Below are positions 5,150 to 11,893 of a stretch of 43,463 nucleotides of DNA, piece by piece (the first letter of the stretch is position 1; the number at the start of each line of letters is the position of its first letter). The stretch is from Gammaproteobacteria bacterium. GTDB taxonomy: Bacteria > Pseudomonadota > Gammaproteobacteria > S144-34. Location of the stretch: the NCBI GenBank assembly GCA_026989495.1, contig JALSJE010000128.1:1-43463 (forward strand), in the 5' to 3' direction. The notes under the pieces were generated by a model, which did not search any database, was not told where the DNA came from, and was given only the letters and a program-made list of their open reading frames with translations. A program made the position numbers and the translations under genes.

Positions 5150-6049
5150 TCAGGCGCGCCGGTAGGCCATGCGCAGCGCGAGCCCGCGCAGGGCCTCGGC
5201 GGCGGGGCCGAGGGGGGCGAGGGTGGCAAGGGCCTCGCTCACCAGCTCCTCCAGCCGCTCACGCGCGGCGTCCAGCCCCACCGCGGCAGGGTAGGTGGCC
5301 TTTTCCCGGGCCGCGTCCTGGCCGCTCGCCTTGCCCGTCTCCTCCGGACGGCCCTCCACGTCGAGCAGGTCGTCGCGGATCTGGAAGGCGAGCCCCACCA
5401 CCTTGGCGAAATGGTCGAGGCGGTCGAGCAGCGCCTGCGGCGCGGCCCCTGCCGCCAGCGCCCCCAGCATCACGCTCGCGCGGATGAGGGCGCCGGTCTT
5501 GTGGATGTGGATGTCCTCGACCTGGGCGGCGTCCAGCCGCCGGCCGGCGGCGAGCAGGTCCAGGGCCTGCCCGCCCGCCATCCCGCGGGAGCCTGCGGCG
5601 CGGGCGAGCAGCGCCACCATGCGCAGGCGCACGGGCGGTGCCGGGGCCGGCGCCGCGGCCAGCGCCTGGAAGGCCAGCGCCTGGAGGGCGTCGCCCGCCA
5701 GGATCGCCATCGCCTCGCCGAAGGCGCGGTGGCAGGTGGGCCGCCCTCGGCGCAGGTCGTCGTCATCCATGGCCGGCAGGTCGTCATGCACCAGGGAGTA
5801 GGCATGGATCAGCTCCACCGCGCAGGCCGGCGCATCGAGGGCCTCGGGCGCGGCGCCCGCCAGCTCGCCCGCGGCGTACACCAGGGCCGGACGCAGCCGC
5901 TTGCCCCCGCCCAGCACCGCATAGCGCATGGCCTCGTGCAGGCGCGCGGGATGGAGCCGGGCGGAAGGCAGGAGCGCCTCCAGCGCGGCCTCCACCCGGC
6001 TGCGGTACTCGGCCAGCCGGGCGTCGAGGCCCGCGCCCGGCTCAGGCAT
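5150..6049 (-). CDS. ispA: Farnesyl diphosphate synthase (geranyltranstransferase)
   Basis: 299 residues, normal for bacterial IspA. It adds isopentenyl diphosphate to dimethylallyl and geranyl diphosphate to make farnesyl diphosphate for quinones, undecaprenyl phosphate and hopanoids. The first aspartate-rich motif is [11 protein letters not shown] (from Asp89) and the second is R-D-D-L-L-D (Asp226, Asp227, Asp230); G-G-G-K-R-L-R-P (from residue 47) binds IPP. Its start overlaps the end of xseB by 8 nt, and dxs follows: the usual gammaproteobacterial xseB-ispA-dxs order. Confidence 0.96.
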
Positions 6050-6299
6050 CGTCGCCTTCCCGGAAGGGGCGGGGCGTGTCCTCGCCCTCGAGCAGGATCT
6101 GGACCTTCTGCTCGGCCTCGCGCAGGGCCTGCTGGCAGGCGCGCGTGAGCGCGATGCCGCGCTCGAAGCAGCGCAGCGACTCCTCCAGGGTGAGGTCGCC
6201 GCCCTCCAGCTTCTCGACCAGGGACTCGAGCTCGGCCAGCGCCCGCTCGAAGTCGGGGAGCGCGCCGGCGCCGGAGCCTTCTGTGGGCGCTTCGCTCAC
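6042..6299 (-). CDS. xseB: Exodeoxyribonuclease VII small subunit
   Basis: 85 residues from a GTG start at 6299. It is the small subunit of the single-strand-specific exonuclease VII, which has a large subunit XseA encoded elsewhere. The family pattern F-E-x-A-L-x-x-L-E-x-x-V-x-x-L-E-G-G-D-L-x-L-E-E-S-L is plain at residues 18-43, followed by a helix with F-E-R-G. It heads the xseB-ispA-dxs operon. The last codons overlap ispA, so the two are probably translationally coupled. Confidence 0.94.
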
Positions 6300-6391
6300 G
6301 GTGTGGCCGCCTGTGGATGCCTTGAAAGGGGGGTGGGCGGCACCTACGTTACTGGAGCGCCGCCCGGGGGGTCAACGCGGCGGCGCTCGAT

Positions 6392-6421
6392 TTGACAGGC
6401 GGCGGCGGTCGCCGCTAGACT
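6392..6421 (+). promoter_or_regulatory. Sigma70-type promoter of the rubrerythrin operon
   Basis: TTGACA (6392-6397) is a perfect -35, followed by an 18-bp spacer and TAGACT (6416-6421, four of six matches). The expected transcription start near 6428 abuts the palindrome at 6431-6449. This is the best-formed promoter in the window. Confidence 0.7.
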
Positions 6422-6430
6422 GACGCCATG

Positions 6431-6449
6431 ATTTAGACATAGTCTAAAT
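6431..6449 (+). promoter_or_regulatory. Perfect palindromic operator at the rubrerythrin transcription start
   Basis: ATTTAGACATAGTCTAAAT: 8-bp arms ATTTAGAC and GTCTAAAT around ATA. It is an AT-rich island in GC-rich DNA, immediately downstream of the -10, which suits a repressor. Arm length, spacing and composition resemble sites of the Fur/PerR/Irr superfamily, which often control rubrerythrins, but the exact sequence is not a standard Fur box. Regulator identity is inference. Confidence 0.65.
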
Positions 6450-6507
6450 CTGGAGGCCGGGCATGGGGCCCGGCCGCGACGTTCGGCGACAACGGAGGAG
6501 GAAGACC

Positions 6508-6930
6508 ATGCCCTCGCTGAAAGGCACCAAGACCGAGGAGAACCTGAAGGCCGCGTTCGCGGGCGAGTCCCAGGCGAACCGGCGCTACCTCTACTTCGCC
6601 GCCAAGGCGGACGTCGAGGGCTACAACGATGTGGCGGCCGTCTTCCGCTCCACCGCGGAGGGTGAGACCGGCCACGCCCACGGCCACCTCGAGTACCTCG
6701 AGGAGGTGGGCGATCCGGCGACGGGCCTGCCCATCGGCTCCACGCGGGACAACCTGAAGGCGGCCATCGCCGGCGAGACCTACGAGTACACCGACATGTA
6801 CCCCGGCATGGCCAAGACGGCCCGCGAGGAGGGCTTCGACGAGATCGCGGACTGGTTCGAGACGCTGGCCAAGGCCGAGCGCTCGCACGCCAACCGCTTC
6901 CAGAAGGCCCTCGACAGCCTCGAGGACTGA
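6508..6930 (+). CDS. Rubrerythrin-type diiron protein lacking the rubredoxin domain
   Basis: 140 residues from ATG 6508 with a strong GGAGGAGG upstream; a longer frame from 6463 has no such site. It is a ferritin-like four-helix protein. Diiron ligands by pattern are Glu20 (A-G-E-S-Q-A-N), Glu53 and His56 (G-E-T-G-H), Glu90/Glu93 (G-E-T-Y-E-Y) and Glu124 and His127 (A-E-R-S-H). The C-terminal rubredoxin (FeS4) domain of classical rubrerythrin is absent, so electrons for peroxide reduction must come from another protein. The next gene, a two-cluster Fe-S protein, is the natural candidate (inference). Confidence 0.93.
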
Positions 6931-7080
6931 GCCGGAAGGATCCGGCGCCATCCCCCGCGGACGCGGGGGCGGCGGGCAGGCGCCGGCGCCTGCCCGGGGG
7001 CGGTCCCGCACGGGCCGCTCGCGGACAGGCGCCGTGCCCGGTTTCGCGACCCTGCATATCCCGGCCGGAGCGGTCCGGCC
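6931..7080 (+). other. Series of strong hairpins between rubrerythrin and the Fe-S gene
   Basis: The 186-nt spacer holds four perfect inverted repeats: 6931-6946 (GCCGGA, loop AGGA, TCCGGC), 6952-6969 (CCCCCGCG, GA, CGCGGGGG), 6974-6995 (a perfect 22-bp palindrome, half-site GGGCAGGCGCC) and 7063-7080 (GGCCGGA, loop GCGG, TCCGGCC). None is followed by a T-run, so they are not standard intrinsic terminators. They may set different mRNA levels for the two genes by stabilising ends or slowing decay, or may be part of a repeat. Confidence 0.7.
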
Positions 7081-7116
7081 GTTCGACGGCATCGCACAGG
7101 ATCGGAAGGCACACCC

Positions 7117-8460
7117 ATGGCAGAGAAAGAAGGTATCCGTGAAGGCAGCCTGGAGGCGCCTGAGCGCCACCCGCTCAACTGGCGGGACCCGGGCTTCTGG
7201 GACGAGGAGGCGCTCTATGCCGAGCTGGCCCGGGTCTTCGACATCTGCCACGGGTGCCGCCGGTGCGTGAACCTCTGCAACGCCTTCCCCACGCTCTTCG
7301 ACCTCGTGGACGAGTCCGAGACCATGGAGGTGGACGGGGTCGCGCGCGAGGACTACTGGAAGGTCGTGGAGCACTGCTACCTGTGCGACCTGTGCTTCAT
7401 GACCAAGTGCCCCTACGTGCCGCCCCACCAGTGGAACGTGGACTTCCCCCACCTCATGCTGCGGGCGAAGGCGGTGCGCTTCCGCAGCCGCGGTGCGCGC
7501 CTTCGCGACCGGGTGCTGGCCTCCACGGACGCGGTCGGCCGGCTCGCCTCCATTCCCATCGTGGTGAACGTGGTCAACGCCGCCAACGGCAGCGGTGCCG
7601 GGCGCGCCCTGCTGGACAAGACGCTGGGCGTGCATCCCGGGGCGCTCCTGCCGCGCTACCACGGCCGCACCTTCCTGCGGCGCGCGCGCGGGCGCCGGCC
7701 GCTTCAGGCCGAGGCCGTCGCCGCCGGGCCCACGCGGGGCAGGGTGGCGCTCTATGTCACCTGCTACGGCAACTACAACGAGCCGGAGCTGGCCGAGGAC
7801 CTCATCGCCATCTTCGAGCACAACGGCATCCCCGTGCGGGTGATCGAGCGCACCCGCTGCTGCGGCATGCCCCGGCTCGAGCTGGGTGACCTCGAGGGCA
7901 TCGAGCGCCTCAAGGACCACAACATCCCCGAGCTCGTGCGGCTCGTGGACGAGGGCTGGGACCTGGTGGCGCCCGTGCCCTCCTGTGTCCTCATGTACAA
8001 GCAGGAGCTGCCGCTGCTGTTCCCGGACGACGAGGCGGTGCGCAAGGTCAAGGAGGCCTTCTACGACCCCTTCGAGTACCTGGCCATCCGCCATCGCCAC
8101 GGGCAGCTCCGCACCGACTTCCAGCGCCCGCTGGGCAAGGTGGCCTACCACGCCGCCTGCCACCTGCGCGTGCAGAACATCGGCCTCAAGACGCGCGAGC
8201 TCCTGGAGCTGGTGCCTGAGACCGAGGTGCAGGTGATCGAGCGCTGCTCGGGCCATGACGGCACCTACGCCGTCAAGCGCGAGTACCACGAGGTCTCCAT
8301 GAAGATCTGCCGGCCCGTGGCGCGCAAGGTCAAGGAGCTCGCGCCGGACCACTACGCGAGCGACTGCCCCATGGCCGGCCACCAGATCGAGAACGCGCTC
8401 GGGCGCGAGCGTCCGCCCGAGCACCCCTTGCGCCTGCTGCGGCAGGCCTACGGAATCTGA
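7117..8460 (+). CDS. Heterodisulfide reductase-related / GlpC-like protein with two 4Fe-4S clusters and CCG domains
   Basis: 447 residues from ATG 7117, with GGAAGG upstream. The N-terminal domain has two ferredoxin-type motifs: Cys44, 47, 50, 54 ([11 protein letters not shown]) and Cys87, 90, 93, 98 ([13 protein letters not shown]). The C-terminal half has two CCG-type (PF02754-like) segments: the first ends R-C-C-G-M-P; the second begins A-A-C-H-L-R and ends R-C-S-G-H-D-G, with Ser in place of the second Cys. HdrD and GlpC use these domains to hold a non-cubane cluster or pass electrons to quinones. The position between rubrerythrin and DUF3501 suggests an electron donor for peroxide reduction. 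No membrane segment is seen, and the substrate is unknown. Confidence 0.88.
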
Positions 8461-8463
8461 AGG

Positions 8464-8616
8464 AGCTCTGGAAAATTCGATTTTTCAGAGCTTCCCCGCG
8501 GCCAGGGACGGCCGCGGGACGGTCCATGCACAGGGAAGTGCATGACGACACGCAAAAAATCGAAATGGACCGCGAAGCGCCATCGCGCTGATCGATCCGC
8601 GCAGCGGATCGATCAG
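8464..8616 (+). other. Folded spacer with alternative hairpins between the Fe-S gene and DUF3501
   Basis: Beginning 3 nt after the stop codon, four inverted repeats follow: 8464-8492 (13-bp arms, loop TCG, one G-U pair), 8495-8518 (CCCGCGGCC, loop AGGGAC, GGCCGCGGG), 8525-8544 (CATGCAC, loop AGGGAA, GTGCATG) and 8588-8616 (13-bp arms, loop GCA). In addition TTCGATTTTT (8476-8485) is exactly complementary to AAAAATCGAA (8555-8564), so a long-range pairing competes with the first hairpin. The layout is compatible with an attenuator, a processing site or a small mobile repeat. Confidence 0.65.
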
Positions 8617-8622
8617 GGTTTC
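8563..8622 (-). repeat. Dispersed 60-bp repeat, copy A
   Basis: Read on the minus strand, this segment matches 11911-11970 (plus strand) at 52 of 60 positions (87%). It contains the near-palindrome GATCGATCCGCTGCGCGGAT. It lies between the Fe-S gene and the DUF3501 gene, in the opposite orientation to copy B. Confidence 0.8.
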
Positions 8623-8662
8623 ATGAAGCTGGCGGGCCGAGGGCCCGCCCGGGAGACGGAAC

Positions 8663-9256
8663 GTGCAAGCCATGCAGAAGCTCAAGCGCGAAGACCTCTG
8701 GAGTCTCGAGGACTACCATCGCGAGCGGCCCGGGTTCCGCCGCAAGGTGATGGCGCACAAGCGCGACCGCATCGTGCCCGTCGGGCCGAACGCGACGCTC
8801 CACTTCGAGGACCGCCTCACCATGCACTACCAGGTGCAGGAGATGCTGCGCGCCGAGCGCATCTACGAGCCGGAGGCGATCCAGGAAGAGCTCGACGCCT
8901 ACAATCCCCTGATCCCGGACGGGACCAACTGGAAGGCCACCTTCATGGTCGAGTACGACGACCCGGAGGTGCGCCGCGAGATGCTGACCAAGCTGGTCGG
9001 CATCGAGGACAAGGTGTGGGTGCGGGTCGGCGACCTGCCCAAGGTCTACGCGATCGCCGACGAGGACCTCGAGCGCGACCAGCCCGGCAAGACCTCTTCG
9101 GTGCACTTCCTGCGCTTCGAGCTCACACCGGAGATGATCGCCGCAGCCAAGGCCGGCGCTTCCGTCGCGGTGGGTGTCGAGCACCCGCTCTACACCTACT
9201 CGGTCGATCCCGTGCCCGAGAACGTGCGCGCCTCCCTCGTGCGCGACCTGGACTGA
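8663..9256 (+). CDS. DUF3501 family protein
   Basis: 197 residues from GTG 8663, which sits 7 nt after GGGAG; the ATG at 8672 three codons later is an alternative. It opens M-Q-K-L-K-R-E-D-L-W-S-L-E-D-Y, followed by R-D-R-I-V-P-V-G-P-N-A-T-L-H-F-E-D-R, the characteristic start of the DUF3501 family. It has no cysteines in motifs, no signal peptide and no membrane segment, so it is a soluble cytoplasmic protein. The family is known to sit beside rubrerythrin and HdrD-like Fe-S genes, as here. Its biochemical role is not known to me. Confidence 0.88.
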   Translation: MQAMQKLKREDLWSLEDYHRERPGFRRKVMAHKRDRIVPVGPNATLHFEDRLTMHYQVQEMLRAERIYEPEAIQEELDAYNPLIPDGTNWKATFMVEYDDPEVRREMLTKLVGIEDKVWVRVGDLPKVYAIADEDLERDQPGKTSSVHFLRFELTPEMIAAAKAGASVAVGVEHPLYTYSVDPVPENVRASLVRDLD

Positions 9257-9375
9257 CCCCGCCTCCCGTGCGCGCCCGGCTTCGACCGCCCCCCAAGGTT
9301 CCCGGGGGCGGGGGCGGGGGGCGCGGGGCGGGCGTCGGCGGCCATGGATTGCCTCTTCCGCCGTGCGTCTGCGTG

Positions 9376-9381
9376 TATACT
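9376..9381 (+). promoter_or_regulatory. -10 box (TATACT) of the CNP1-like gene
   Basis: TATACT ends 9 nt before the ATG at 9391, so transcription would begin about 3 nt before the start codon. There is no Shine-Dalgarno sequence. A -35 is not clear; TTGCCT at 9349-9354 is too far (21-nt spacer). Confidence 0.5.
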
Positions 9382-9390
9382 ACGCGCGGC

Positions 9391-11893
<2,503 letters not shown>

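Follow-up and report, generated by a model that had tools for sequence, protein, structure and literature searches.

The window, by which we mean the whole stretch of 43,463 nucleotides analysed here, codes for an operon in which a rubrerythrin, a 4Fe-4S oxidoreductase (RFO) and a DUF3501 protein are co-localised, an arrangement that PMC5114695 describes as the "aerobic-type" rubrerythrin cluster; in the text of that paper neither "regulator" nor "promoter" is used. The orthologues of this rubrerythrin are 79-100% identical. A short palindrome lies between the promoter of the operon and its first gene, and the features of the locus, together with a candidate regulator encoded on another contig of the genome, are the following.

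6392 to 6397, plus strand: -35 hexamer TTGACA, beginning 48 bp ahead of the box centre
6416 to 6421, plus strand: -10 hexamer TAGACT, after an 18-nt spacer
6431 to 6449, no strand: putative operator, Irr-type box ATTTAGACATAGTCTAAAT, 28.2 bits with a symmetric matrix made from 90 rubrerythrin boxes
6494 to 6504, plus strand: ribosome-binding site GGAGGAGGAAG, read from the sequence
6508 to 6930, plus strand: rubrerythrin, single-domain ("aerobic-type"), 140 aa (Pfam PF02915, 109 bits; type as in PMC5114695)
7117 to 8460, plus strand: 4Fe-4S oxidoreductase (RFO; GlpC-like CCG protein), second gene of the operon (family and co-localisation as in PMC5114695)
8663 to 9256, plus strand: DUF3501 protein, third gene of the operon (Pfam PF12007, 249 bits; PMC5114695)
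C130:3330-3767 (= L011:1405-1845), minus strand, outside the window: Irr-like protein, 146 aa, best families IrrA and Irr

A preliminary description of this DNA had singled out 6431-6449 as a perfect 8-3-8 palindrome, a rare AT-rich island placed at a well-formed promoter, and palindrome and promoter were borne out. The letters ATTTAGACATAGTCTAAAT stand at exactly that position, no second match with three or fewer mismatches occurs in the window (none is expected from shuffled windows), and the TTGACA and TAGACT hexamers with their 18-nt spacer are the sole sigma-70-like match in 6200-9400. Judging from the position of the -10 box, transcription would start near 6428. A pattern search of the 2.54-Mb genome found the perfect TTTAGACNNNGTCTAAA only once, at the rubrerythrin site. 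Weak matches of the form TTTAGAACCCTTCTACA on contigs C54 and C73 were discarded, as one of them adjoins a transposase-like ORF and neither lies ahead of a plausible target.

Two other elements of this region deserve mention. A GC-rich hairpin, GGCCGGGC-ATGGG-GCCCGGCC, is located at 6455-6475, past the box and ahead of the ribosome-binding site. In two congeners a hairpin likewise occupies roughly this position, with letters that differ, which suggests that a structure in the 5' untranslated region is conserved. On the other side, xseB (6042-6299) is divergent from the rubrerythrin operon and in relatives (L262, L250) adjoins a box, so that the box lies in a shared intergenic region and may also influence the xseB-ispA-dxs side.

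To follow the palindrome across the class, we used a sample of 276 genomes, 126 of which have a close rubrerythrin, and read 125 upstream regions, calling a box when at least 12 of 14 positions matched (shuffled sequences average about 9.5). Upstream of 90 of the 125 rubrerythrin orthologues a box was present at this threshold, the remainder being near the shuffled level, and in two congeners (other species of the same genus) the 19-mer is identical and its flanks have diverged. The preliminary description had named a lack of conservation at orthologous rubrerythrin operons as the observation that would count against it, and we found the opposite. From the 90 boxes a matrix was derived whose consensus, ATTTAGACTnAGTCTAAAT, is a 9-1-9 palindrome carrying about 24 bits, TTAGA/TCTAA being nearly invariant; it is this 9-1-9 box that is conserved, and the window copy is asymmetric at the innermost pair only. 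A TTGACA-like hexamer begins 46-50 bp before the box centre in 49 of the 90 box-bearing promoters (48 bp in the window), which means that the box usually overlaps the transcription start, with a variable placement in the other promoters and a distance to rbr that ranges from 25 to 242 bp across loci. Comparison of these sequences leads us to the conclusion that the palindrome is a predicted operator rather than a chance palindrome. Variants were seen in two genomes: G063 has a second perfect box within the rubrerythrin operon, ahead of the Fe-S oxidoreductase gene (L262:2051-2067), and in G058 (L125 and L250) the rubrerythrin promoter has TTTAGACACAAGTCTAAAT, with a box spacer one base longer, and a perfect box is found ~3 kb off.

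Two genes of the Fur family are present in the genome, one for a canonical Fur (L010), the other for the 146-aa protein listed above. The two best NCBIfam families of the latter are TransRegIrrA and FeRespRegIrr, although its scores (123.4 and 116.7 bits) fall below their curated cut-offs of 150 and 170. The presence of the rubrerythrin box follows that of irr closely: 83 genomes have both, 5 irr only, 7 the box only and 28 neither (p=2.8e-16), and with one genome per family the counts are 50, 5, 4 and 19 (p=4e-10), both p-values modelling phylogeny incompletely. Box and irr also covary inside four families (f33, f44, f106 and f113).

Canonical Fur might be thought to bind the box, as it is present in the genome and the boxes of the Fur family measure about 19 bp. 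However, a strong Fur gene is found in all 30 irr-less genomes checked, of which 7 have the box and 23 do not, so the presence of Fur is no predictor of the box, and the sequence also misfits the Fur box, the consensus of which is GATAATGATAATCATTATC. The same data bear on the idea that the palindrome is not a DNA operator at all and serves, once transcribed, as a 5'-terminal hairpin of the mRNA, in stability or attenuation. The transcript could indeed fold the palindrome (z = -3.8 for 6425-6510), but a hairpin would not account for the conservation of the letters themselves, with TTAGA/TCTAA nearly invariant in 90 loci, for a presence that follows irr, or for boxes that lie 25-242 bp from rbr and also ahead of peroxidase genes, and no terminator-like tail was found at the palindrome. 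We rejected both readings, Fur because of the 23 of 30 Fur-bearing, irr-less genomes that lack the box, which leaves it very improbable, and the RNA hairpin because the letters themselves are conserved and the box tracks irr, which leaves it the slimmest chance of all.

The position of the boxes points to the Irr-like protein as well. The preliminary description had proposed checking whether a Fur-family gene carries this site in front of it, and of 79 irr loci (a few being counted twice) 17 have a box of at least 10 bits ahead of irr, for example AATTAGACTTTGTCTAATT in genome G045, while the irr promoter of the window genome itself has a weak half-site only. In alphaproteobacterial loci such as L310, L331, L336, L365 and L379, irr is directly upstream of rbr and the box lies between both genes, and in G186 irr is likewise just upstream of rbr. 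The correspondence has exceptions on both sides, with five irr-positive genomes without a good rbr box and seven box-positive genomes without detectable irr; for three of these seven, irr is present in a relative of the same family, so that an assembly gap or a recent loss is possible there. The same seven genomes would be expected if a different regulator that usually travels with irr were the one that binds the box. We consider this unlikely, given the boxes ahead of irr and between irr and rbr, and given the known case of an Irr that binds a box of similar kind at genes for a rubrerythrin-like protein and a peroxidase (PMC3413700).

Where the preliminary description had left the regulator unassigned, co-occurrence, autoregulatory boxes, irr-rubrerythrin synteny and regulon content thus allow us to name one, the 146-aa IrrA-like protein. 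We put the probability that the box is the operator of this protein at about 0.83, with binding deduced from comparative data. The broader reading of that description, a Fur-family type of operator distinct from the usual Fur box at the predicted start site of a peroxide-defence gene, held up. The rbr-RFO-DUF3501 operon would thereby gain a predicted regulator.

A genome-wide pattern search of 70 irr-positive genomes, with gene names read from the translations rather than from a Pfam scan, returned mostly rubrerythrin sites. The other genes behind a box code for cytochrome c peroxidases (L226, L252 and L257), KatG (L249, L256 and L259), AhpC in one genome (L258) and Irr itself (L246), and several sites are ahead of no clear target; no haem-synthesis or iron-uptake gene was found among the box-bearing genes. 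Besides rubrerythrin, the candidate regulon would therefore seem to consist mostly of peroxide-defence genes. In the window genome, weaker boxes precede two di-haem cytochrome c peroxidase genes, one of 19.0 bits at L004 (one mismatch to the degenerate box) and one of 18.1 bits at L002 (two mismatches), the latter directly after a TTGACA-TATTCT promoter, and among peroxidase loci of irr-positive genomes 12 of 30 have a box of at least 10 bits, compared with 0.4% of shuffles. This set parallels that of Rhodobacter sphaeroides, in which the two predicted Irr-box genes, mbfA (rubrerythrin-like) and ccpA, are both bound by Irr (PMC3413700). Some matches of the search lie ahead of other kinds of genes. 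In one irr-positive genome, a monothiol-glutaredoxin-like gene has a perfect box 87 bp ahead of it (L260:1531-1547), and boxes are located 34-42 bp upstream of metallophosphoesterase-like genes in two different families (L251:1491-1507 and L254:1477-1493). The products of the latter carry an N-terminal RRQFL signal, and these genes are possibly an unexpected member of the regulon.

The classical Irr consensus is TTTAGAA-N3-TTCTAAA. Our alphaproteobacterial irr-rbr boxes are of the same AGAA/TTCT form, as in ATTTAGAACAGTTCTAAAT of L379, and in the gammaproteobacteria the inner position is mostly C.G instead of A.T; the box described here co-occurs with irr and differs in its inner base from the alphaproteobacterial one. 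Residue 61 of the protein, in the recognition helix VS-K-ATVYNTL, ranks first of all alignment columns for association with this base: an inner C accompanies Lys61 in 111 of 154 half-sites and never occurs with Leu, Met or Gln (0 of 22). The Irr tree holds only about three independent changes, and an independent-pairs test, with too few pairs, was nonsignificant, so lineage effects may play a part and the link between Lys61 and the C.G variant is suggestive.

The closest known system is the Irr of R. sphaeroides (PMC3413700), which also has a rubrerythrin-like protein and a di-haem cytochrome c peroxidase as targets, a box on or close to the start site, and a protein that keeps HxH without a haem regulatory motif. 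It differs in that here the rubrerythrin, of the soluble aerobic type, shares an operon with RFO and DUF3501, the inner position of the box is C.G, and canonical Fur occurs alongside in the host, a gammaproteobacterium. Rhizobial Irr and its iron control element (ICE) share the protein family and the general layout of the box; that Irr, however, has wide control over haem synthesis and iron genes, whereas here the targets are mostly peroxide-defence genes and the haem regulatory motif is missing. PerRA of Leptospira interrogans, with Irr-box-like sites reported upstream of perRA, belongs to a spirochaete and has a different regulon (PMC8638967). Earlier papers treat Irr as a regulator of alphaproteobacteria (PMC8638967, PMC7762939), apart from a prediction for the Acidithiobacilli (PMC2631029); with respect to those papers, the wide gammaproteobacterial distribution, the C.G variant and the suggestive link to Lys61 are new. 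Judging by the Irr-like gene and its box, gammaproteobacteria of at least 50 families appear to have a peroxide-defence regulon of this kind, and the window genome, one of them, has retained Fur as well. The boxes and proteins form a ready set for probing how sensing diverged between Irr and PerR, and also how a helix of the Fur family shifts its DNA specificity.

According to an alignment with Bacillus subtilis PerR (2fe3), the five regulatory metal ligands H37, D85, H91, H93 and D104 correspond to H42, D90, H96, H98 and D109 of the Irr-like protein, and none of the five varies across 97 Irr-like proteins, H96 and H98 forming the HxH haem/metal motif of Irr. The translated protein of the window genome contains no cysteine, and neither do 48 of 69 relatives, which means that it has neither the Cys4 structural zinc site of PerR nor the haem regulatory motif (Cys-Pro), a motif that is present in only some Irr. 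The closest solved structure is that of a Fur-family protein, 5nl9 (68 bits), which we take to be from Leptospira. The protein thus resembles a repressor of the Fur family whose metal site is PerR-like, and by sequence it is nearest to Irr. With B. subtilis PerR it shares the metal ligands, the Asn in TVYN of the DNA-binding helix and a peroxide-defence regulon, and it differs in the missing cysteine zinc site and in the operator, which is TTATAATNATTATAA for PerR (PMC545781).

We propose that a dimer of the Irr-like protein would sit on the 19-bp box, where it would cover roughly +3 to +21 of the rubrerythrin transcript, blocking in this way the promoter of rbr-RFO-DUF3501; the same protein would very likely control both di-haem cytochrome c peroxidase genes of the genome. 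The repressor would most likely be metal-loaded (Fe or Mn) through the PerR-like His/Asp site, and oxidation of this site by peroxide would release it, so that the peroxidases are made when needed. We give peroxide an even chance of being the inducer. The main alternative keeps repressor and operator and takes iron or haem status as the signal, as in rhizobial Irr: apo-Irr would repress the iron- or haem-rich peroxidases at haem shortage, and haem bound at HxH would release it. That HxH is kept in 97 of 97 proteins agrees with this scheme, as does the fact that most box-bearing targets are iron or haem enzymes, and R. sphaeroides Irr still binds haem without a haem regulatory motif (PMC3413700). 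Against it, the protein has no Cys and thus no such motif, the iron-free AhpC carries a box in one genome (L258), and the box-bearing genes found include none for haem synthesis or iron uptake. We regard release by haem or iron as a reasonable but less probable option, the regulon making release by peroxide somewhat likelier in our judgement. In R. sphaeroides, the irr mutant is more peroxide-resistant (PMC3413700). A large group of gammaproteobacterial Irr proteins could form a branch that senses peroxide, with one recognition-helix residue accounting for the shift of its operator between AGAA/TTCT and AGAC/GTCT, a tentative idea that we would rate somewhat below even.

The genome also codes for an OxyR-like protein (243 bits, under the cut-off of the OxyR model), so peroxide sensing need not depend on Irr. 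In two congeners the OxyR-like gene adjoins a second, more distant rubrerythrin-like gene (G001:C219:900-2320 and G002:C383:8340-9760).
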